A stretch of DNA of 29,894 nt from Deltaproteobacteria bacterium (GTDB lineage Bacteria; DRYD01). Location: the NCBI GenBank assembly GCA_028276365.1, contig JAPYWL010000011.1, positions 1 to 29,894 of the forward strand. Direction: 5' to 3'. The notes under the pieces are model-generated. The model made no database searches and was not told the DNA's origin. It worked only from the letters and a program-made list of their open reading frames with translations. Shown here in pieces: positions 1,805 through 19,547 of this stretch. The position numbers were made by a program, and so were the translations under genes. The first letter of the stretch is position 1. The number at the start of each line of letters is the position of its first letter.

Positions 1805-2650
1805 TTATTCCTTTTTATTTTGAGTATATAATTTAATCAAATTTACTAATTCATTAATATAATTTTGATCTAATTTAGATTCTATTTTTTGCATTCTTAG
1901 TAATAAATCATCTACTATTTGATTATAATTAACAGCTTTTCCTACACTAAGGTAAATATTATCTATTCTTTTATTTAATTCATCTATTCTTTGAGTATTC
2001 TCAAATACTTTCTTTAAAACTTCCTCTCTTGAATCATTTATAAGTTTAATTAATTCTAATCTAGTGCTATCAATTTTTGTATTTAATCTGATTTCTATAT
2101 TATCAATTTTGGTATTTAATTTATTCTCTAAATTATCAATCTTTTTATCCAATTTGCTTTCTATATTATCAATTTTGGTATTTAATTTATTCTCTAAATT
2201 ATCAATCTTTTTATCTAATTTGCTTTCTACATTATCAATTTTAGTATTTAGCTCATTTGTAAAATTATCAATCTTGGTATCTAGTTCATTTCTAAAATTA
2301 TCAATTTTGGTATCTAATTCATTTCTAAAATTATCAATCTTTTTATCTAATTCATTTCTAAAATTATCAATTTTTTTATCTAGTTCATTTCTAACATCGT
2401 CTATTTTGGAATTTAATTTATCAATTCTAACCTCAATGTTATTTAATCTATTTTCAACACTGTTAATTCTATTTTCAATGGAATTCATTCTATCATTAAT
2501 AGAAACAAGAGATATTTTAATTCCTTCTAATTCTCCTTTAATTTGTCCTCTAAATATTTCAAATTCTTTTTGTAAATCTGATATTATAGCTTCCTTTACT
2601 ATCTGTGCTATTTTCTCTGGATTAAATATATCAAATATTTTCTTAAACAT
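1805..2650 (-). CDS. Hendecad-repeat coiled-coil protein in the flagellar operon
   Basis: I do not recognise a named family. The 281-residue protein has an amphipathic N-terminus (residues 1-40), then an almost uninterrupted coiled coil. Residues 79-199 are eleven near-identical 11-residue repeats of the type LDKKIDNFRNE / LNTKIDNIESK, with hydrophobic residues at fixed spacing; an 11-residue (hendecad) period suggests a straight or slightly right-handed coiled coil. The last 60 residues are helical and less repetitive. There is no signal peptide or membrane segment. It lies between fliK (stop 17 bases upstream of its ATG) and the flgF/flgG-family gene, with a GGGAG ribosome site, so it is co-transcribed with hook genes. 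A structural or ruler-like role is only a guess from context. Confidence 0.8.
   Translation of the reverse strand: MFKKIFDIFNPEKIAQIVKEAIISDLQKEFEIFRGQIKGELEGIKISLVSINDRMNSIENRINSVENRLNNIEVRIDKLNSKIDDVRNELDKKIDNFRNELDKKIDNFRNELDTKIDNFRNELDTKIDNFTNELNTKIDNVESKLDKKIDNLENKLNTKIDNIESKLDKKIDNLENKLNTKIDNIEIRLNTKIDSTRLELIKLINDSREEVLKKVFENTQRIDELNKRIDNIYLSVGKAVNYNQIVDDLLLRMQKIESKLDQNYINELVNLIKLYTQNKKE
2054..2416 (-). repeat. Eleven tandem 33-base repeats inside the coiled-coil gene
   Basis: The DNA repeats with a 33-base period (11 codons), for example the recurring 'aaattatcaat' blocks. Some neighbouring units are nearly identical and others pair into a 66-base superunit (ESKLDKK... alternating with ENKLNTK...). 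This pattern points to recent slippage or unequal crossing-over, so copy number may vary between strains. Confidence 0.85.
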
Positions 2651-9992: not shown

Positions 9993-10121
9993 AATGAATT
10001 TATAATATATATTATGGAATAATTTTTTAACAATATTTTAAATAATATTTAAAGGGTTACTAAAGTAAAAATTATAATTAAATTAAAGGATGCCAAAAAA
10101 AATTTAGAGGTGATATTCTTA

Positions 10122-11969
10122 ATGGAAAAAATAAAGTCAAATGATTTATTTAGCACATATCTATATATCCAAGATAAATTTAATCCTTTAAATTTTTCAA
10201 ATGAGGTATATAAAAGTATACAAGATGAATTGAATTTAATAGAGTACAATTTTTATATAGATAAATCTAAGGTTAATTTGGAAAATATACTAAGCAATAT
10301 ATATGGATTATTTTCTCAAACATTAGTTCCAAATTATAACTATTTAGTAGAAATAGCAACTAAAGTAGCTATGATTTTATCTAATCCTAATAAATCTTAT
10401 ATTGACTTTCAAACTAAAAATTTATTAAATAATATAATTAATACAATGAAGCAAAATAATGATAACTTAGGTTTAAATTTGGAAAAAATAATAAATTATT
10501 ATTCATATTCTAATCCTACTATAGTATTTAAAACAGTAGAATTTATATATGATAATTTCAAATCCCAAAGTGGGTGGGTAGCAAATAAGGATAATTTACC
10601 TGATTCTAATAAATTATTACAAATCCAATTTAAAGCAAAAACTTTACAAAATATAATAAATAAAAAACAAGTAATAGATATCTTTATTCAAAATGAAATA
10701 AAGGAATTTTTAAAAGAGGTCTTTAATATTTTTCCAAATCTAAAAAATGCAATAGATCTAAATGATCCTATAATAATGAATAATAAAGATTTTTGGTTAA
10801 AATTTTTAAGTATAATAAGTGATAGTTTAAGCGTAGTTAATGAATTTATAAAGCCTTATAATATTAAAGATAATATAGAAGCTTCAAAATTAATGACTAC
10901 TCTATATTACCTTAATTTAGCTAAAAGTAATCCAGTAAATATATATTCTGCCTTATCTTATATAAATCAGGAACATAAAAATATAATAAATACAATAAAT
11001 AGCCAATACTTAAAATTTGGATTAAATTCTGAAGAAGTTAATAAAAATGTAGCAAATGACTTATATAATACCTATGGAGGGATATTAGCTTCATATTTTA
11101 AAGGATTAATAAAAAAAGGAGACTTAACTAATGGGGATTGTTTAGATTTTTTAACTCTATATCTTAAAAGCTCTATTATCTTAGATTATATTAACAATAA
11201 TAAAGATAAAATTGATAATAACAAATTAAATAATATGATGAATGATTTAAGATCATTTATGATTTCTAAACCTTATTTAAAAGATTTATATAATTTAAGC
11301 TTTACAAACGATATAAATAATATAAAATCTTTATTAGAGGTATTAAAAAAGATCGGTCAGAAAGTTGCTCCTTGGGTTATTTCAAAAAGTCCCAATATGC
11401 CTAAAAATAGAGAATTCTGGTTAAGAACTAATTTATTAATTAAAATTATTCAAAAATTAGATAAAAAAGATCCTAATTATAATAATATTTTAAATCAACT
11501 TGAAAATTATTTAAAAAATGAGATAATCTTAACTTACTCTGATACTTTATTTTTTAGTAATTCTATAATAAATAATATCTATAATAATAGTATCTACAAT
11601 GATAAGGATAGTTTTGTAAATAATTTTAGTAGTATATTAAATACTATATCAGGTTTTCCCATAGCTACTAAATTTGATCCAGATTACTTATTTAGTAATT
11701 TAGTATTAAGTAATTACTTAAAAGAAATAAATAAACAAATTGAACAAAATAGAGAAAATAATAATATCAATTTGCAAAACTATGAAAACAATATATTAAA
11801 TAAGCTATTACTAAATATAATGTCAAAAGATACAAATTTACAAAAAGTTTTATATGATTACAATAATTATAAAAATATAATAAAAGAGGATGTTTTAAAA
11901 GATGCTTTACTAAATGTAATAAATACTTTTTACGGGGCTAGTACATATTATCTTGATTTTGAAAACTAA
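10122..11969 (+). CDS. Large all-helical protein of unknown function (615 residues)
   Basis: I do not recognise a family. The protein is rich in Asn, Lys, Leu and Ile, has no signal peptide or clear membrane span, and looks helical along its length. Two blocks resemble each other, NNKDFWLKFLSII near residue 224 and KNREFWLRTNLLI near residue 432, which suggests an internal duplication or a helical-repeat architecture of HEAT/TPR type. Conserved-looking Trp and Gly (GWVANKD at 151-157; YGGILASYFKG at 318-328) may mark functional sites. A GTG lies 12 bases upstream in frame but falls inside the ribosome site AGAGGTGAT, so I start at ATG 10122. It is the first gene rightward from the divergent region, 159 bases before speD. 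Confidence 0.72.
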   Translation: MEKIKSNDLFSTYLYIQDKFNPLNFSNEVYKSIQDELNLIEYNFYIDKSKVNLENILSNIYGLFSQTLVPNYNYLVEIATKVAMILSNPNKSYIDFQTKNLLNNIINTMKQNNDNLGLNLEKIINYYSYSNPTIVFKTVEFIYDNFKSQSGWVANKDNLPDSNKLLQIQFKAKTLQNIINKKQVIDIFIQNEIKEFLKEVFNIFPNLKNAIDLNDPIIMNNKDFWLKFLSIISDSLSVVNEFIKPYNIKDNIEASKLMTTLYYLNLAKSNPVNIYSALSYINQEHKNIINTINSQYLKFGLNSEEVNKNVANDLYNTYGGILASYFKGLIKKGDLTNGDCLDFLTLYLKSSIILDYINNNKDKIDNNKLNNMMNDLRSFMISKPYLKDLYNLSFTNDINNIKSLLEVLKKIGQKVAPWVISKSPNMPKNREFWLRTNLLIKIIQKLDKKDPNYNNILNQLENYLKNEIILTYSDTLFFSNSIINNIYNNSIYNDKDSFVNNFSSILNTISGFPIATKFDPDYLFSNLVLSNYLKEINKQIEQNRENNNINLQNYENNILNKLLLNIMSKDTNLQKVLYDYNNYKNIIKEDVLKDALLNVINTFYGASTYYLDFEN

Positions 11970-12128: not shown

Positions 12129-12719
12129 GTGATTGAAAAAGAGTTAACAAATAATAAATATTCTAAATCATCAAAGGTTCAAAATGTTCCAGTTATTCCT
12201 ACTTTAGGTAGACATATAATAGTAGAGTTATCAGGGTGTTTAGAGGAAACAATTAATGATTTGTCAAAAGTCGAAGCTTTAATGAATGAAGCTGCTAAAA
12301 AAGCTAACGCTACTATTATAAAGAGTGTTTTCCATAAGTTTTCTCCAATGGGAGTTAGTGGGGTCGTTGTTATATCTGAATCCCATCTATCTATCCATAC
12401 TTGGCCAGAGTTAGGGTACGCTGCTATAGACATCTATACCTGCGGATCCAATACTAAACCATTTAAAGCTTGTTATTTTTTAGCCCAAAAATTCAAAGCT
12501 AAAAAAATTAAAGCTACTTATATAATAAGAGGAATAGAAAAGAAATCAAAGAATAAGGAATATAATTTTTATACCCATAAAATAAAGATGATGGAAGGGA
12601 ATGTTAATACCTTAAAAATATTACCCACCCTTGTAAAAAAAATCCAAAATAATGGGAATAATCATAAAAAAGAAAAAAAAGAAGATAATAATATGTTATT
12701 ATTGGTAGGTGAAAAATAA
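12129..12719 (+). CDS. speD: S-adenosylmethionine decarboxylase proenzyme, prokaryotic class 1B
   Basis: The enzyme decarboxylates S-adenosylmethionine to provide the aminopropyl donor for polyamine synthesis. It self-cleaves between Glu84 and Ser85 in VISESHLSIHTWPE, Ser85 becoming the pyruvoyl cofactor; His90 and Cys105 (DIYTCG) are the other processing/catalytic residues. The core (residues about 27-140) matches the 120-130 residue bacterial form, but here a Lys/Asn-rich tail of about 55 residues is added. The start is GTG at 12129, with AAGGAGGG 10 bases upstream; no ATG is available before the core. Its TAA overlaps the next ATG (TAATG), giving translational coupling to the aminopropyltransferase. 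Confidence 0.95.
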   Translation: MIEKELTNNKYSKSSKVQNVPVIPTLGRHIIVELSGCLEETINDLSKVEALMNEAAKKANATIIKSVFHKFSPMGVSGVVVISESHLSIHTWPELGYAAIDIYTCGSNTKPFKACYFLAQKFKAKKIKATYIIRGIEKKSKNKEYNFYTHKIKMMEGNVNTLKILPTLVKKIQNNGNNHKKEKKEDNNMLLLVGEK

Positions 12720-13699
12720 TGACATTGTTTTTACCAATGGATGATTACCAAAAATTTAATGAGTCTCTACCTTTACAGTGGTTATGGTATTATGAATATC
12801 ATAGCCCTTATGAAATACATTCTCATGCTGTCAAAAATGTGTTAATAAGAACAAAAAGCAAATACCAGCAAATAGATGTGATAGATACCTTTAATAGTGG
12901 TAAATTATTGATATTAAATAGTGAGCCTCAATCAGCACAAGTAGATGAGTATATTTATCACGAAGCTTTAGTTCATCCAGCAATGATTGTTGCTAAAAAA
13001 ATTGATAATGTTCTAATAATTGGAGGTGGAGAAGGAGCCACTTTAAGAGAAGTAGTTAAGTACAAAGGCGTTAAAAAGATAATTATGGTTGATATAGATG
13101 AAGATTTACACAAAGTAGCTAAAGAATATTTAAAAGAATGGCATCAAGATTCATTTAATGATAGTAGAGTTACTATTATATTTGATGATATTAAAAATTA
13201 TGTTGATAAAGCTATAGAAAATAATGAAAAATTTGATGTTATTATCTCAGATCTAAACGAGCCTACAGGTAGCACTCCTGCATTTAAAATATACACTCCA
13301 GATTTTATTGAAAAAATCTTAAAAATATCAAGTGAAAATTTAATTATGGTTTTACAAGCATCTGATTTAAAAGATATACTATTTTGGGAATATAGGCAAG
13401 ATAAAGAATATCCTATTATTTTTGAACATTTTGAATTATTTTATAAATATTTTAAGGACGTGTTACTATATCATGCTTTTATACCTTCTTTCTTTAGTGA
13501 CTGGGCTTTTATTATTGCATCTAAATCTACTATATCTTTTGATGTAAATAATATTGATAATATAATAAATCAAAGAGTTTCTGGTGAATTAAAATTTTAC
13601 GACTCAGAAACTCATCAATTACTATTTTCTTTACCTAAATTTGTTAGAAAAGTTTTAAAAAAATTTAGTAATAAAAAAGAGGGAGTGGAAATCATATGA
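12719..13699 (+). CDS. Aminopropyltransferase, spermidine synthase family, thermospermine synthase (ACL5)-like
   Basis: It transfers the aminopropyl group from decarboxylated S-adenosylmethionine to a polyamine acceptor. The family blocks are DEYIYHEALVHPAM (76-89), the glycine loop IGGGEGATLREV (101-112) and MVDID (123-127). Classical spermidine synthases read GGGDG and a following D-S/T-x-D-P-x-G block; here the loop is GGGEG and the block is SDLNEPTG (177-184), both like the plant and bacterial ACL5 clade. The C-terminal segment FYDSETHQLLFSLPKFVRK (from residue 293) also matches that clade. I infer thermospermine or another longer polyamine rather than spermidine as product. Length 326 is longer than most SpeE (about 285). 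TAGGTGA precedes the ATG that overlaps the speD stop. Confidence 0.88.
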   Translation: MTLFLPMDDYQKFNESLPLQWLWYYEYHSPYEIHSHAVKNVLIRTKSKYQQIDVIDTFNSGKLLILNSEPQSAQVDEYIYHEALVHPAMIVAKKIDNVLIIGGGEGATLREVVKYKGVKKIIMVDIDEDLHKVAKEYLKEWHQDSFNDSRVTIIFDDIKNYVDKAIENNEKFDVIISDLNEPTGSTPAFKIYTPDFIEKILKISSENLIMVLQASDLKDILFWEYRQDKEYPIIFEHFELFYKYFKDVLLYHAFIPSFFSDWAFIIASKSTISFDVNNIDNIINQRVSGELKFYDSETHQLLFSLPKFVRKVLKKFSNKKEGVEII

Positions 13700-13953
13700 A
13701 AAAAAACATTCATCCAACAGTTTACGAAACCACAGTTGTATGTGGTTGTGGAAACACTTTTAAAACTATTTCTACTAAGAAAGAATTGAAAGTAGAAATT
13801 TGTTCTAATTGTCATCCGTTTTATTTAGGCCAAACTACTACTACAGTAGAAGCTAAAGGTAGAATTGAAAAATTCCTATCTAAATTCGGGGATAAATACA
13901 AAGATAGTATATTAAAGCAACACTCTAAATCTAAGCAAAAAACTAAAAAATAA
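13696..13953 (+). CDS. rpmE: 50S ribosomal protein L31, zinc-binding (C+) type
   Basis: This is ribosomal protein L31, located at the bridge between the two subunits. The start MKKNIHPTVYETTVVC and the four zinc-ligand cysteines (Cys16, Cys18, Cys36, Cys39: CxC and CxxC, the latter in CSNCHPFY) define the C+ form, which binds zinc and is swapped for a Cys-less paralogue under zinc limitation in some bacteria. The 85-residue length includes a Lys/Ser-rich C-terminal tail beyond the usual 66-70. The ATG overlaps the upstream TGA by four bases (ATGA), with GAGGGAG before it, so it belongs to the speD operon. That is an unusual place for rpmE. Confidence 0.95.
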   Translation: MKKNIHPTVYETTVVCGCGNTFKTISTKKELKVEICSNCHPFYLGQTTTTVEAKGRIEKFLSKFGDKYKDSILKQHSKSKQKTKK

Positions 13954-13960
13954 CTAATAA

Positions 13961-15082
13961 ATGGATAATAAACAAAAATTGCCAAAAATTTTAAAAAAAT
14001 ACAAAATAGAATATATAACAGTTGCATTTATAGTATTTGCTTTTGTTGGAATTTTCTTATGTTTTATGTTTCCTCTTAATATAGCTATAGCTATCCTTTT
14101 ACTAATTTTTATTTATGGATATTATCAACGGAAATTTAATATCAGTTTTAAAAAAGAATTAATTAATGATGTATTGATCAAAACATTAAAAGAGTATGAT
14201 TTAAATGAATCTGATATATATTACTTACCTTCTATAAATAAAAATAAAATTAAAGATGAAAATAATTCGGTATTTAAAGATTCTTTAGCTAAATTAGATT
14301 ATATTATAGAACAAATATATAACCACATTTTTCAAAAATATATTATTAATTTTTTTTTAAAACAATTTCAAGTACCAACATATGTTAGTGCTTTTTATGA
14401 TGATATAGTACAGATAAATAAAATTAAAAATAATTACAACATAGAGGATATAATTAAACTTAACATAAATAAAGAAATACTAATAACAGATGTTAGCCTA
14501 GAGGTTATAATTGATTATATTACAAAGTATGATGTTTTAGAGAGTAAATATAAGTACTTTTCAGGATTACTAATATCATTTCCCTTAAGAAATATTTATA
14601 TACCTAATCCTATATTAGTATTTTTTGTAAAGAATATTTTGAATGATCCTATTAATTTTATCAAAGCTAATTACGTAATTGATAAAAAATATGAAAATTT
14701 ATTTAATTCTGATTTATTTAAATATTCTAAATATTCTAGCATTTCATTTAAAATAAACGAAATTTATAATGAAAATGAATATAAAATTCTAGATGAAGAT
14801 ATATTGTGTTATACTTCAAATTTAAATGAAATAGATAAATATAAAACAATAATTGATAATTTAATTATGAAGTATTATAAAGAAAATAAATATTATTTTT
14901 CGTTTTTTGTTATATATGAAGATAAGTTGTATAATTTCCTTCATTATGAAGATTTAAATATAAAAAACAAGGATTTATTTCATGTTCCAAATTTTTTAAA
15001 TATTAAAGAAGATGAAATAAAAGAATTAGAACAAAAATATCAACAAGAATTTAAAAAAATACTTAACATTATTTTTAATTGA
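13961..15082 (+). CDS. Membrane protein of unknown function, weakly DUF3137-like
   Basis: The 373-residue protein has two adjacent hydrophobic segments at about residues 20-39 and 42-57, then a long soluble domain. After the membrane hairpin comes YYQRKFNISFKKELINDVL, and near residue 200 KYFSGLLISFPL. This layout (short N-terminus, membrane hairpin, soluble region with an F-x-G-L-[FIL] strand) faintly recalls DUF3137 proteins, but the resemblance is by eye. There is no catalytic motif. It starts 7 bases after rpmE, so it is co-transcribed, but without a visible Shine-Dalgarno. Function unknown. Confidence 0.55.
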   Translation: MDNKQKLPKILKKYKIEYITVAFIVFAFVGIFLCFMFPLNIAIAILLLIFIYGYYQRKFNISFKKELINDVLIKTLKEYDLNESDIYYLPSINKNKIKDENNSVFKDSLAKLDYIIEQIYNHIFQKYIINFFLKQFQVPTYVSAFYDDIVQINKIKNNYNIEDIIKLNINKEILITDVSLEVIIDYITKYDVLESKYKYFSGLLISFPLRNIYIPNPILVFFVKNILNDPINFIKANYVIDKKYENLFNSDLFKYSKYSSISFKINEIYNENEYKILDEDILCYTSNLNEIDKYKTIIDNLIMKYYKENKYYFSFFVIYEDKLYNFLHYEDLNIKNKDLFHVPNFLNIKEDEIKELEQKYQQEFKKILNIIFN

Positions 15083-15105
15083 TAAAATTAAAATGAGTTA
15101 GAAAA

Positions 15106-15145
15106 GAATGAAAATTATGGATAAGGAATGAAAATTATGGATAAA
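15106..15145 (+). repeat. 20-base tandem duplication covering the kdd start region
   Basis: The 20-mer GAATGAAAATTATGGATAAG occurs twice in direct tandem (15106-15125 and 15126-15145, one mismatch at the last base). Each copy holds two ATGs. Since 20 is not a multiple of 3, the upstream ATG at 15108 opens only MKIMDKE before a TGA that overlaps the downstream ATG (AATGA). Confidence 0.9.
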
Positions 15146-16174
15146 GAATTAGAATATTTAGGAATTCATAGAAGTATAGAACCCAAACACATTTTACCTC
15201 AAGCTGCTTATAAGGTCGATAATTCATTACCAATAAAAGATAGTGAAATATTATTTGAATTAGATTCTTTAAATATAGATTCAGCATCCTTTTATCAACT
15301 TAAAAGTAGTTTAAATAATGATAAAGATTTAATAAAAAAAGAAATATTGAAAATAGTAAGAGAAAGAGGAAAAATGCATAACCCAATTACTAATTCAGGA
15401 GGTGTTTTTCTAGGTAGAATAAAAGAAATTGGAAAAAACTATAAAAATAAAGACTTAAAAGTAGGAAGCAAAGTAATTTCACTAACATCTTTAACTTATA
15501 CTCCATTATACTTAGAAGATATAATTGATATTAATTTAGATACTAATAGTGTATATGTAAAAGGGTATGCGATATTGTTTTATAATAGCCCATTCTCTGT
15601 AATAGATGGGATAAATATAGAGGAAGAAGTATTGATGATGGTATTAGATGTAGCAGGTGCTCCTGCTTATGCAGCTAAATATTCTAAAGTAGGTAATATA
15701 GTTATAATATTAGGGGGAGGAAAGTCTGGGGTTTTATCAGCTTATCAAGCTTACTTAAGAGTTAAACCTACAGGAAAAGTATTTATATTAACTAAAGAAC
15801 AAGAAGAAGTAGAAAAATTATCAGAATTAGGTATAGCAGATAAGGTCATAAAATGCGATGCCACTGATCCTATAAATACATTAAAAGAATATTTAAAACA
15901 TAATAATGAATTAGCTGATTTGGTTATAAATTGTACAAATGTAGGTAATACTGAAGCTACTTCAATTCTTTTAGCTAAAGATCAAGGGAAAGTTATTTTC
16001 TTTTCAATGGCTACTTCATTTACTCAAGCAGCATTACAAGCAGAAGGTATAGCTAAAAATGTCGAATTAATAATAGGGAATGGATATTATCCAGGACATG
16101 ATAAAATTGCTATAGACTCCCTCTTAAAAAACCAAAAAATATACCAATTTTTTAAAAATAAGATAAAAAAATAA
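15137..16174 (+). CDS. kdd: L-erythro-3,5-diaminohexanoate dehydrogenase
   Basis: Kdd performs the NAD-dependent oxidative deamination of 3,5-diaminohexanoate to 5-amino-3-oxohexanoate in lysine fermentation to acetate and butyrate. Recognisable features are LGIHRSIEPKHILPQ (8-22), LNIDSASFYQLK (45-56), RERGKMHNPITNSGG (75-89), VLDVAGAPAYAAK (169-181) and the Rossmann loop ILGGGKSG (191-198). Full length is about 345, as in the family. I prefer ATG 15137 because AAGGA lies 9 bases before it; ATG 15128 would add three residues with the ribosome site too close. The other lysine-fermentation genes (kamA, kamDE, kal, kat, kce) that usually adjoin are absent from this window. Confidence 0.88.
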   Translation: MDKELEYLGIHRSIEPKHILPQAAYKVDNSLPIKDSEILFELDSLNIDSASFYQLKSSLNNDKDLIKKEILKIVRERGKMHNPITNSGGVFLGRIKEIGKNYKNKDLKVGSKVISLTSLTYTPLYLEDIIDINLDTNSVYVKGYAILFYNSPFSVIDGINIEEEVLMMVLDVAGAPAYAAKYSKVGNIVIILGGGKSGVLSAYQAYLRVKPTGKVFILTKEQEEVEKLSELGIADKVIKCDATDPINTLKEYLKHNNELADLVINCTNVGNTEATSILLAKDQGKVIFFSMATSFTQAALQAEGIAKNVELIIGNGYYPGHDKIAIDSLLKNQKIYQFFKNKIKK

Positions 16175-16196
16175 AAATCTTAAAATATAATAAATT

Positions 16197-16580
16197 ATGA
16201 AAAAAATAAATAAAAATACCTATAAAATCCATCTGGTTAATATTTCTGCTTTAATTAATTTGAAAAAGATAGATGAATGTCAAGACTATATAACAAATAT
16301 TTTTGATTTAGAATTAGATGAATCTGAAATAATATTCTTTGAATCAATCTTGGAAATACTTAATTTAATTAAAGAAATAAAAAATCAACATTATAAAGAT
16401 TATAAAAATTTAGCAACTATTGAAGCTAAATTATCTAAAATTAATGAAAATATAGAAAAATTAAAAACATTTGATAAAATAATAGAAAAAGAATTTATTG
16501 AAGAATTAATAAATACTTTATTTTCTACAAGAGATTATAAGTTATCTAGATTTTTTATAAACTGGCAAACCTTAATATAG
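16197..16580 (+). CDS. Small helical protein of unknown function
   Basis: This 127-residue protein is not recognised. It is strongly helical with heptad-like Ile/Leu spacing in the middle (IEAKLSKINENIEKLKTF, about residues 76-93), no signal peptide and no membrane segment. The start ATG has no Shine-Dalgarno, like several genes in this rightward run. It lies 22 bases after kdd and 19 bases before the HD hydrolase, so it is part of the same transcription unit. The reading frame is real-looking, but the start is uncertain. Confidence 0.5.
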   Translation: MKKINKNTYKIHLVNISALINLKKIDECQDYITNIFDLELDESEIIFFESILEILNLIKEIKNQHYKDYKNLATIEAKLSKINENIEKLKTFDKIIEKEFIEELINTLFSTRDYKLSRFFINWQTLI

Positions 16581-16599
16581 TTTAAAATAGAGCATAAAC

Positions 16600-17139
16600 A
16601 TGAATTTAGTAGAAAAAGCATTGAGAATAGCCGTATTATATCATAAAGATCAAAAAAGGAAAGTAGATAATTTACCTTATATAGTGCATCCTGTTATGGT
16701 TGCTTTAAAATTAGCTAAATATGGATTTGATGATGTGGTAATCGCTGCTGCTTTGGTACATGATATCCTAGAAGATACTGATTTTACTAAGGAAAATTTA
16801 GAAAAGGAATTAGGTCCTAAAGTATTAGAAATAGTTGAATCAATTAGCCATGATGATAATATAAAAGATTGGGTTGAAAGAAAAAAAAGATACATACAAA
16901 AAGTAAGAAATGCTTCTTTTGAAGCTAAAATAGTGTCTATTGCAGATAAAATACATAATTTAGAGAGTTTATTAATAGCTTATGAACAATTAGGGCCATC
17001 TGTTTGGGATAAATTTAATACTACCAAAGATAAAAAAATATGGGCAGAAAATGAATTATTAAAAATGTATAAAGAAACTTTAAATCATCCTTTAGTAATT
17101 GAATACCAAAATTTAGTCAATAAAATTAATCAATTATAA
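16600..17139 (+). CDS. MESH1-like HD-domain hydrolase, candidate small alarmone hydrolase
   Basis: The 179-residue protein is a single HD domain of the SpoT/RelA hydrolase type, with no synthetase domain. Metal ligands by position are His30 (YIVHPVMVA), His54-Asp55 (ALVHDILEDT) and Asp116 (IADKIHNL), and Glu58-Asp59 complete the ED motif. The size and motif order match stand-alone MESH1-type enzymes, which hydrolyse (p)ppGpp (and in animals also NADPH). Substrate here is inferred from family only. No Shine-Dalgarno is visible before the ATG, so translation may depend on the upstream gene. Confidence 0.85.
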   Translation: MNLVEKALRIAVLYHKDQKRKVDNLPYIVHPVMVALKLAKYGFDDVVIAAALVHDILEDTDFTKENLEKELGPKVLEIVESISHDDNIKDWVERKKRYIQKVRNASFEAKIVSIADKIHNLESLLIAYEQLGPSVWDKFNTTKDKKIWAENELLKMYKETLNHPLVIEYQNLVNKINQL

Positions 17140-17215
17140 CTAAAAGAAAGAAGGAAAAATTAATAAAAAAAATTAATCTAATAATAGAAAACAAATCTAA
17201 AAGGAATATGAATTT

Positions 17216-17857
17216 ATGATTAAAGGAATATCTAATTTCTTTTATAGAATAACTAATGGTAATAATAATGAAATAACTAGAAACAATAATACCATCGGAC
17301 CAAACAATAAAAATTATAATAATAATACTATAGAAAATACTATAGAAAATAATGAAGAAAATTTGGAAATACATCAAATAGATAGTTATAATAAGGTTAA
17401 TAATAATGCAATTCAAACATTTCATGATGAAGCAGCTGTAGAAGTTAGTGTAGGTGTTGAAGGAAAATCTATTGAAGATAAAATTAATATACTAAAATAT
17501 ATAATGTATGATAAAACAATTAGCGTTAAAAATTATGTAATAGAAGGTAATTTTAAGGTTGATTACGCTGATTATACTTCTATTACTATACATATAAATG
17601 GTAAGAAAGAGACAATAAGTGATAATGATTCACAACAAGATAGCAAGCCTCCTAATTTAGATAACAATCTTTCAGATGATGGTTATATTATCTCAAATAA
17701 TGGAGTAAATAACAAACATAATAATGAAAATATAAATAATAAAAATAATAATAACCGTATTACTTTTAAAGCATTGATGGAAGCAGTATATCTTATCTCT
17801 GGAAGAACTAATAATAATAACAAGCTTAAAATATTTGAAATTATAAATAAAAAATGA
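17216..17857 (+). CDS. Asparagine-rich protein of unknown function
   Basis: Not recognised. The 213-residue protein has two Asn-rich stretches (about residues 15-45 and 155-185) flanking an ordered-looking middle, in which residues 68-130 read as alternating strand and turn (for example VEVSVGVEGKS and YTSITIHINGKK). There is no signal peptide. The Asn runs come from AAT repeats, which are common in such A+T-rich DNA. The ATG at 17216 has AAAGGA 10 bases upstream. Its TGA overlaps the ATG of the ureohydrolase (ATGA), so the two are probably translationally coupled. Confidence 0.55.
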   Translation: MIKGISNFFYRITNGNNNEITRNNNTIGPNNKNYNNNTIENTIENNEENLEIHQIDSYNKVNNNAIQTFHDEAAVEVSVGVEGKSIEDKINILKYIMYDKTISVKNYVIEGNFKVDYADYTSITIHINGKKETISDNDSQQDSKPPNLDNNLSDDGYIISNNGVNNKHNNENINNKNNNNRITFKALMEAVYLISGRTNNNNKLKIFEIINKK

Positions 17858-18807
17858 AATCTTTTTTAAAAATGTATATAGAAAATGAATTAAAGTTTTT
17901 AAGGGACCCTAAAAATTCTAAATTGAAAGATCTTATAAATATAATCCAAAATCCAGATATATATATCCAAACTTTAGAATTAGAAAACAGAATAAAGGAT
18001 ATAGCAATATTAGGGATAGGGTGGGATAGTAGTACCGCTGGAAAACCAGGAGCTAGATTTGCTCCTAAATATCTTATAGATAAGCTATTAACCTTATCAT
18101 TATATACCCAAGATTTTGATAAAACAATAGATTTTTTAGGATTCCTTAAAATCATATTATCTAATAAGGAACTAACTTTTTATAATATAAAGCACATTAC
18201 CAATAAATTACTAAAAGTATATAGAACCAATATTTTTTTAGGTGGAGATCATAGCATAACCAATCCAATATTGGAAAGCTTTTTAAGTAAATATAATAAC
18301 CTAAATTTGATAGTATTTGATAGTCATTTTGATTTAAGGGAAATAGAAGAGGGTTTAAGTGGAGGTACTTACCTAATTGATACTATTAAGTATTCAGTCA
18401 AAAATAATTTTAACCTAAATGTAGTTATCTTAGGGATTAAAGAAAGTGCTAATCCATATTATTTATTTAAAAACGCCCAAAAATATAATGTTAAATTTTT
18501 AAGAGCATTCGATTTACTTAATAATAGAAATTTAGCTATTGATTTTATTGATAAAAATATAGATAAGAACTATCCTACTTATGTAAGTTTAGATGTAGAT
18601 AGCATAGATAGTACTTTTATTGATAGCGTTAATTCCGCTTATGGAGTTAATCTAAAACCTTTTGATGTAATTTATATTATTGACTTTATAAAGAAAAATT
18701 ATAAATTAGTAGGAATGGATATAGTAGAGTTTAACCCATTAGTAGGTAATTTAGATAAATCTCTTAATAATTTAGTTGAAATCCTTTATTACTTTCTTTT
18801 TAATTAA
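17854..18807 (+). CDS. Ureohydrolase (arginase/agmatinase family), candidate agmatinase
   Basis: The family hydrolyses guanidino or formimino groups with two Mn ions. All ligands are visible: His133 (FLGGDHSI), Asp156, His158 and Asp160 (VFDSHFDLRE), Asp247 and Asp249 (YVSLDVDSID). Glu292 sits in GMDIVEFNP, and the N-terminal GIGWDSSTAGKPGARFAP fits the R-P-G-A-R-x-G-P start. Agmatinase (agmatine to putrescine and urea) is favoured by the polyamine genes nearby. However, the ligand block reads FDxRE with SGGT after it, closer to formimidoylglutamase than to the DAHTD of agmatinase, and the usual DP after the third ligand pair is DS. Family certain, substrate open. Length 317, normal. Confidence 0.85.
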   Translation: MKSFLKMYIENELKFLRDPKNSKLKDLINIIQNPDIYIQTLELENRIKDIAILGIGWDSSTAGKPGARFAPKYLIDKLLTLSLYTQDFDKTIDFLGFLKIILSNKELTFYNIKHITNKLLKVYRTNIFLGGDHSITNPILESFLSKYNNLNLIVFDSHFDLREIEEGLSGGTYLIDTIKYSVKNNFNLNVVILGIKESANPYYLFKNAQKYNVKFLRAFDLLNNRNLAIDFIDKNIDKNYPTYVSLDVDSIDSTFIDSVNSAYGVNLKPFDVIYIIDFIKKNYKLVGMDIVEFNPLVGNLDKSLNNLVEILYYFLFN

Positions 18808-18833: not shown

Positions 18834-19547
18834 ATGAATTCATTTATTTATTCTTTAGTAAATAATTTCTCATTAATAACTAATATTATATTTGGTAATG
18901 ATAAATGTATAGTTTGTAATAAATTTTGCTTTTATAGTATTTGTGAATCCTGTAAATCTAATATTACTGCTAATTATATTTCTTACTTTAAAGTAGATCA
19001 AACAAATTTTTACCATTTTGACAAATTATATTTTAATGATGTATATTCTGTTAGTAATTATTCTAATTTACTCCCCTTAATAAGAGAATATAAATTTAAT
19101 AACAAGATTTATTTATCTTTATTTTTAAGTTCTTTAGTTAGAAACTTAGTAAATAAATACTCCTTAGAATTTGATCTAATAGTAAATGTGCCCAATCATG
19201 ATTTTTTTCAATATACTTTTTATTTATCACTAAATTTATCAAGAATATATAAAAAGCCTCTTTTTAATATAATATCACTTTCAGATAATTATCAAAAACA
19301 ACATTTCATAGAAAATAAAACAGAGAGAATAAGAAATGTTAAAAATAAATACAAAATAAAGAATTTAAACAAAGCAAATAAAATTTTAAATAAACTTTGT
19401 TTAAAATTAAATAAGGATAAGCTAAATATTTTGTTAGTAGATGATATAATAAAGACTGGGGCAACAGTTAACGAAATCTCAAAGTTAATAAAAAATAATT
19501 TTAAATTAATAAATAATATAATTGTAGTATCATTAGCTAAAGCTTGA
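18834..19547 (+). CDS. comF: ComF-family phosphoribosyltransferase-like protein
   Basis: The 237-residue protein has an N-terminal zinc finger (Cys25, Cys28, Cys37, Cys40: CIVC and CESC) and a C-terminal type I phosphoribosyltransferase fold with the PRPP-binding motif LLVDDIIKTGAT (200-211). The family includes ComFC of natural transformation, a cytoplasmic partner in DNA uptake, and relatives of unknown role. A prepilin and a PilC-like protein elsewhere in the window would suit a competence system, but they are not in the same operon. No Shine-Dalgarno precedes the ATG. It is the last gene of the rightward run; no clear terminator follows in the 60-base gap to the convergent pilC-like gene. 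Confidence 0.85.
   Translation: MNSFIYSLVNNFSLITNIIFGNDKCIVCNKFCFYSICESCKSNITANYISYFKVDQTNFYHFDKLYFNDVYSVSNYSNLLPLIREYKFNNKIYLSLFLSSLVRNLVNKYSLEFDLIVNVPNHDFFQYTFYLSLNLSRIYKKPLFNIISLSDNYQKQHFIENKTERIRNVKNKYKIKNLNKANKILNKLCLKLNKDKLNILLVDDIIKTGATVNEISKLIKNNFKLINNIIVVSLAKA

Follow-up and report, generated by a model that had tools for sequence, protein, structure and literature searches.

The speD and speE genes of this DNA are a translationally coupled pair, real and ordinary for a known clade, and would provide both the aminopropyl donor and the transferase needed for polyamines of the spermidine type. We place a probability of about 0.68 on a route in which a flexible SpeE of the GGGEGA clade makes spermidine derived from agmatine, BpsA branches the product, and the neighboring genes are unrelated to polyamines. 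The gene identities, the clade and predicted fold of SpeE, the order speD-speE-rpmE and the presence of homologues of the other enzymes are direct observations. A preliminary description of positions 12129–18807 had gone further, to a host that makes thermospermine and to a possible co-regulated module, and both of these exceed the evidence.

The window, meaning the whole stretch of 29,894 nucleotides that was analyzed, corresponds to contig C29 in a draft genome of 1.59 Mb and has a GC content of 23%. The genome is 87% complete, so that enzymes missing from it are weak evidence of absence. The search for relatives turned up only five further genomes from the same family and one more from the order.

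The speD-speE-rpmE unit

Three genes follow one another with overlaps or a conserved order:

12129..12719, + strand: speD, class 1b S-adenosylmethionine decarboxylase, 196 aa (PF02675, 141.7 bits; TIGR03330; processing motif)
12719..13699, + strand: speE-type aminopropyltransferase of the GGGEGA clade, 326 aa (PF01564, 117 bits; PRK00811; trees; model)
13696..13953, + strand: rpmE, ribosomal protein L31 (PF01197, 95.6 bits; tblastn synteny)

SpeD scores 149.8 bits against TIGR03330, above the cut-off of 75.65, and its processing site ESHLSIHTWPE (ISESHLSIHTWPE), including the processing serine, is intact, as is the YTCG motif. The score and the processing serine together identify it as a class 1b AdoMet decarboxylase. 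As previously described, speD overlaps the transferase gene: both genes are intact and share a single base at position 12719, where speD ends and speE starts (TAATG). A further four bases are shared between speE and rpmE (ATGA, rpmE starting at 13696), and the order of the three genes is kept in six of six family genomes according to tblastn synteny.

Past its decarboxylase domain, SpeD carries a C-terminal extension of ~60 residues rich in Lys and Asn. Directly upstream of speD (window 10110–11969) lies a gene for a 619-aa protein with 79% identity in the sister species, for which a search of Pfam and NCBIfam gave zero matches.

SpeE belongs to the GGGEGA clade

SpeE reaches 220.9 bits against PRK00811, under the equivalog cut-off of 260, and the PDB sequences closest to it are Thermus SpeE, Medicago ACL5 (thermospermine synthase) and Pyrobaculum SpeE. 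The GGGEG loop and the SDLNEP block noted previously are both found, in the motifs GGGEGA, MVDID and SDLNEP. Classical spermidine synthases combine GGGDG(G) with placement in the SpeE clade; the window SpeE instead has GGGEGA, and its motifs (hhhhGGGEGA, MVDID and DLx(D/E)P) and fold are those of GGGEGA-clade aminopropyltransferases. Nearly all of the ~50 clade members that we examined, from many bacterial phyla and the Thermoproteota, have GGGEGA, and DLTEP is present in several unrelated groups. GGGEG and SDL(T/N)EP thus mark a broad clade, not ACL5 and the thermospermine synthases specifically.

The phylogeny proposed in the preliminary description separates the classical GGGDGG synthases from the remaining rows, window SpeE included, on a branch with 100/100 support. 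Inside the non-classical clade the window family forms a long branch of its own, with 1.0 to 1.1 changes per site, but AU tests allow it beside ACL5 (p-AU 0.61), beside Thermus SpeE (p-AU 0.67) and adjoining the classical clade as a whole (p-AU 0.49). The placement within the clade is equally compatible with ACL5 and with Thermus SpeE. The AlphaFold model (pLDDT 89.3) fits best to three structures from the GGGEG clade, 6bq2 with Z 39.2, 1uir with Z 38.4 and 7xif with Z 37.7, and matches the classical enzymes with Z 35.5 or less; fold Z values less than 1 apart count as ties, and 6bq2 and 1uir are tied. The earlier assignment to the thermospermine-synthase clade stands insofar as SpeE is non-classical and, by sequence and predicted fold alike, is similar to ACL5 and Thermus SpeE, but the motifs are clade-wide.

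Compared with the Thermus thermophilus SpeE, a triamine/agmatine aminopropyltransferase (1uir, 3anx) of the same GGGEGA clade with ~35% identity, the window enzyme has a family insertion, an N-terminal extension and DLNEP in place of DLTDP, and its activity is predicted. The plant ACL5 (Medicago MtTSPS, 6bq2) shares the GGGEG and MxDID motifs and the highest Z value, whereas identity is ~34%, the sister relation lacks support and the motif is common to nearly the whole clade. The insertion, of ~9 residues, follows QASD(L/M)KD (SpeE residues ~217–235), is common to the aligned family members and is found only in this family. It lies close to the acceptor-binding loop and is modelled at lower confidence (pLDDT ~69); it could alter the specificity of SpeE.

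In one locus of the same order (L021, genome G006, contig C199) the speE homologue is far diverged, with 38% identity and GGGDGM, and lies in a frame of 528 codons, perhaps as a fused or membrane-linked form.

A predicted route to spermidine and branched polyamines

The genome has one SpeE-type match only, and a search of the 87% complete draft for a fold-III decarboxylase of the Orn/Arg/DAP (carboxyspermidine) type found none; given both results, no separate source of spermidine was found. Since it is the sole SpeE-type enzyme found, SpeE most likely makes spermidine, and perhaps thermospermine too. All substrates, all products and the direction of flux in the following route are predictions. 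SpeD would produce decarboxylated AdoMet, from which SpeE, probably a substrate-flexible enzyme of the GGGEGA clade, would transfer the aminopropyl group. Arginine would probably be converted to agmatine by an OKR-type decarboxylase on contig C94 (OKR_DC homologue, 146 bits, best PDB match 2x3l); arginine is its probable substrate, and ornithine or lysine could be used. The agmatinase on contig C54 (174.4 bits, equivalog cut-off 174.3) would turn agmatine into putrescine, from which SpeE would form spermidine. Alternatively, SpeE would form N1-aminopropylagmatine and an agmatinase-type enzyme would hydrolyze this to spermidine; 17 of 18 tested bacterial spermidine synthases accept agmatine too (PMC11107197). 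BpsA, on contig C87, would then probably convert spermidine to branched polyamines, with thermospermine as a possible second SpeE product.

The route resembles the Bacillus-type pathway of speD, speE, speA and speB in having a class 1b SpeD, an OKR-type decarboxylase and an agmatinase in the genome, and differs from it in the GGGEGA-clade SpeE, in the location of the decarboxylase and agmatinase on other contigs, and in the addition of BpsA. Of 80 loci from named relatives, 54 carry speD no farther than 6 kb from speE, and in 12 a decarboxylase of the same, arginine-decarboxylase type lies inside that distance.

BpsA, the branched-chain polyamine synthase, is encoded outside the window in six of six family genomes (L188–L193), and in the host genome it is the following gene:

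L189 1483–2559 (genome G000, contig C87): BpsA (BpsA_C, 248.6 bits against 27; GDDD; YYDDEAY)

This protein has the BpsA_C domain, the GDDD motif and the acidic C terminus of a BpsA, and scores 203 bits against BpsA of T. kodakarensis (5xnc). A homologue was also found in Thermus in a control search. BpsA converts spermidine to N4-bis(aminopropyl)spermidine, mainly found in thermophiles (PMC12979288). Of the signs of unusual polyamines in this lineage, BpsA is the strongest and the more informative. That longer polyamines are made, as previously proposed from the transferase, is plausible for longer or branched ones, but on the basis of a gene elsewhere in the genome. With this, an uncultivated lineage of very low GC is added to those bacteria for which branched-chain polyamines are predicted.

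The arginase-family and kdd-like genes

Two enzymes encoded farther along the run bear on the question of whether it is a polyamine cluster:

15128..16174, + strand: kdd-like, L-erythro-3,5-diaminohexanoate dehydrogenase (NF052381, 191 bits, cut-off 200)
17854..18807, + strand: arginase-superfamily hydrolase, HutG (formimidoylglutamase)-like (PF00491, 136 bits)

The product of 17854–18807, previously described as agmatinase-like, scores 103.6 bits against the agmatinase model TIGR01230, below the cut-off of 174.3, and a better agmatinase is found on contig C54. The arginase-fold metal ligands are kept. The protein has SGGT where agmatinases have SHxx, lacking the histidine, has SVNSAYG at the place of SpeB T244, and is without PGTGT; H163 and T244 of E. 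coli SpeB are proposed guanidinium contacts (PMC8049259). A score below the cut-off and the loss of both contact residues led us to reject it as a typical agmatinase. The same xGT pattern occurs in formimidoylglutamases, and in the tree the window group falls on the HutG side (92/96). The score against the HutG model TIGR01227 is 88.3 bits, below its cut-off of 229.15, hence we call the protein HutG-like and do not file it as HutG. It shares with Bacillus subtilis HutG (3m1r) the xGT that replaces SHxx, the absence of the agmatinase PGTGT and the metal ligands, whereas identity is low, the branch is long and the genome encodes FtcD as an alternative. From these features the protein is probably not an agmatinase and resembles HutG. 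An agmatinase-like label beside speE can mislead, and the likelier agmatinase sits on another contig (C54).

We consider it unlikely that the protein is instead an N1-aminopropylagmatine ureohydrolase, which would make the run a polyamine cluster and leave agmatine to the C54 enzyme. Two arginase-family paralogues are retained in five of six family genomes, the gene shares a contig with speDE within the genus, and AU tests do not reject its grouping with agmatinases (p-AU ~0.2), nor other placements. However, the equivalents of SpeB H163 and T244 are missing, the agmatinase score is far under the cut-off, in the sister genus the gene sits on a different contig from speDE, and histidine-pathway genes are present in the genome.

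A role in amino-acid fermentation would fit both genes. HutH-type and HutU homologues occur in six of six genomes, HutU being confirmed at 895 bits, and FtcD in five of six. A Kce homologue is likewise present in all six, and for this reason kdd fits lysine fermentation and is probably outside polyamine function. The histidine and lysine fermentation genes are thus family-wide, and therefore kdd and the HutG-like gene fit amino-acid catabolism. FtcD can carry out the same step as HutG on formimidoylglutamate; HutG as the only formimidoylglutamate route was rejected, as FtcD is encoded too and the need for HutG is weakened.

The fermentation genes are scattered over the genome, with Kce at L185 (C87), HutH at L159 (C52), HutU at L146 1874–3511 (C66) and FtcD at L167 1456–2370 (C6). 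In the sister genus (G002, L149 4560–8160 and 8260–9297) the genes close to kdd are lysA and two that encode a probable aspartokinase and a protein-kinase-like product, and speE is not among them.

Thermospermine as a possible SpeE product

Assays of bacterial aminopropyltransferases showed that GGGEGA does not split spermidine/N1-aminopropylagmatine synthases from thermospermine synthases, both of which fall inside the GGGEGA clade, and that most of the assayed thermospermine synthases make spermidine from putrescine as well (Li et al. 2024; PMC11107197). Since clade and motif include spermidine/N1-aminopropylagmatine synthases and the place of SpeE in the clade is not fixed, thermospermine cannot be inferred from SpeE, and the earlier conclusion that the host makes it is not supported. 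The locus adds to the cases that warn against deducing thermospermine from a GGGEG 'ACL5-like' motif.

A dedicated thermospermine (or norspermine) synthase, with spermidine obtained by another route or by uptake, strikes us as rather improbable. GGGEGA and MVDID do fit such enzymes (PMC11107197), and the Medicago enzyme is the best fold match, by a margin the size of a tie. Nevertheless, the motif occurs in spermidine/aminopropylagmatine synthases as well, the assayed enzymes mostly have the dual activity described above, and the genome has a single SpeE-type enzyme and yielded no fold-III decarboxylase. More doubtful still is a combined scheme in which one flexible aminopropyltransferase with the insertion would draw on agmatine and, together with BpsA, yield thermospermine as well as branched polyamines. 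Putrescine would play no part in it, and the second arginase-family enzyme would be a new ureohydrolase subfamily in the route.

Neighboring genes and synteny

The preliminary description correctly listed rpmE, a membrane protein, kdd and a MESH1-like hydrolase as intervening genes. The remaining features of the run and its downstream neighbor are:

13961..15082, + strand: orphan membrane-like protein (no Pfam/NCBIfam match; absent from this place in the loci of relatives, sister species included)
16197..16580, + strand: small orphan protein (conserved only in the genus)
16600..17139, + strand: MESH1/SpoT-HD-like hydrolase (PF13328, 66.9 bits; not here in any relative examined)
17216..17857, + strand: Asn-rich orphan ORF (at this place in this species only)
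18834..19547, + strand: comF-like phosphoribosyltransferase (TIGR00201, 55.1 bits; neighbor conserved in the genus)

That 12129–18807 is a co-regulated stress or nucleic-acid-stabilizing module is very improbable: all of its genes run on one strand with small gaps, but a comparison of gene order in five relatives and at 80 named speE loci speaks against any module past speD-speE-rpmE, which we rejected. Elsewhere in the genus, the locus reads speD-speE-rpmE-kdd-small ORF-arginase family-comF and lacks the membrane, HD and Asn-rich genes, as it does in the sister species. In the sister genus only speD, speE and rpmE are together, kdd and the arginase-family gene being on other contigs. Within 6 kb of the 80 named speE loci, some of which end at contig ends, rpmE and an arginase-family gene occur in one locus each, and kdd, the HD gene and comF in none. 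An Rfam search for regulatory RNAs at E 0.5 gave no match, and a scan for promoters and terminators gave counts at chance level. In the reading that we favor, kdd and the HutG-like gene would belong to amino-acid fermentation, and the other neighbors would be lineage-specific.

At window positions 1805–2650, flanked by flagellar-looking genes, is a gene for a coiled-coil protein of repeated LDxKIDNxxNEL units.

Signs of thermophily

The host is an uncultivated, probably thermophilic, amino-acid-fermenting bacterium. In five genomes, seven tRNA genes representing three kinds reach a GC content of 61–64%, against 23–30% in their surroundings:

L031 2240–2312: GC-rich tRNA gene
L146 6–77: GC-rich tRNA gene
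L147 4643–4714: GC-rich tRNA gene
L152, L153, L154 and L156: GC-rich tRNA genes

Few such genes were examined, and their composition suggests a thermophile.
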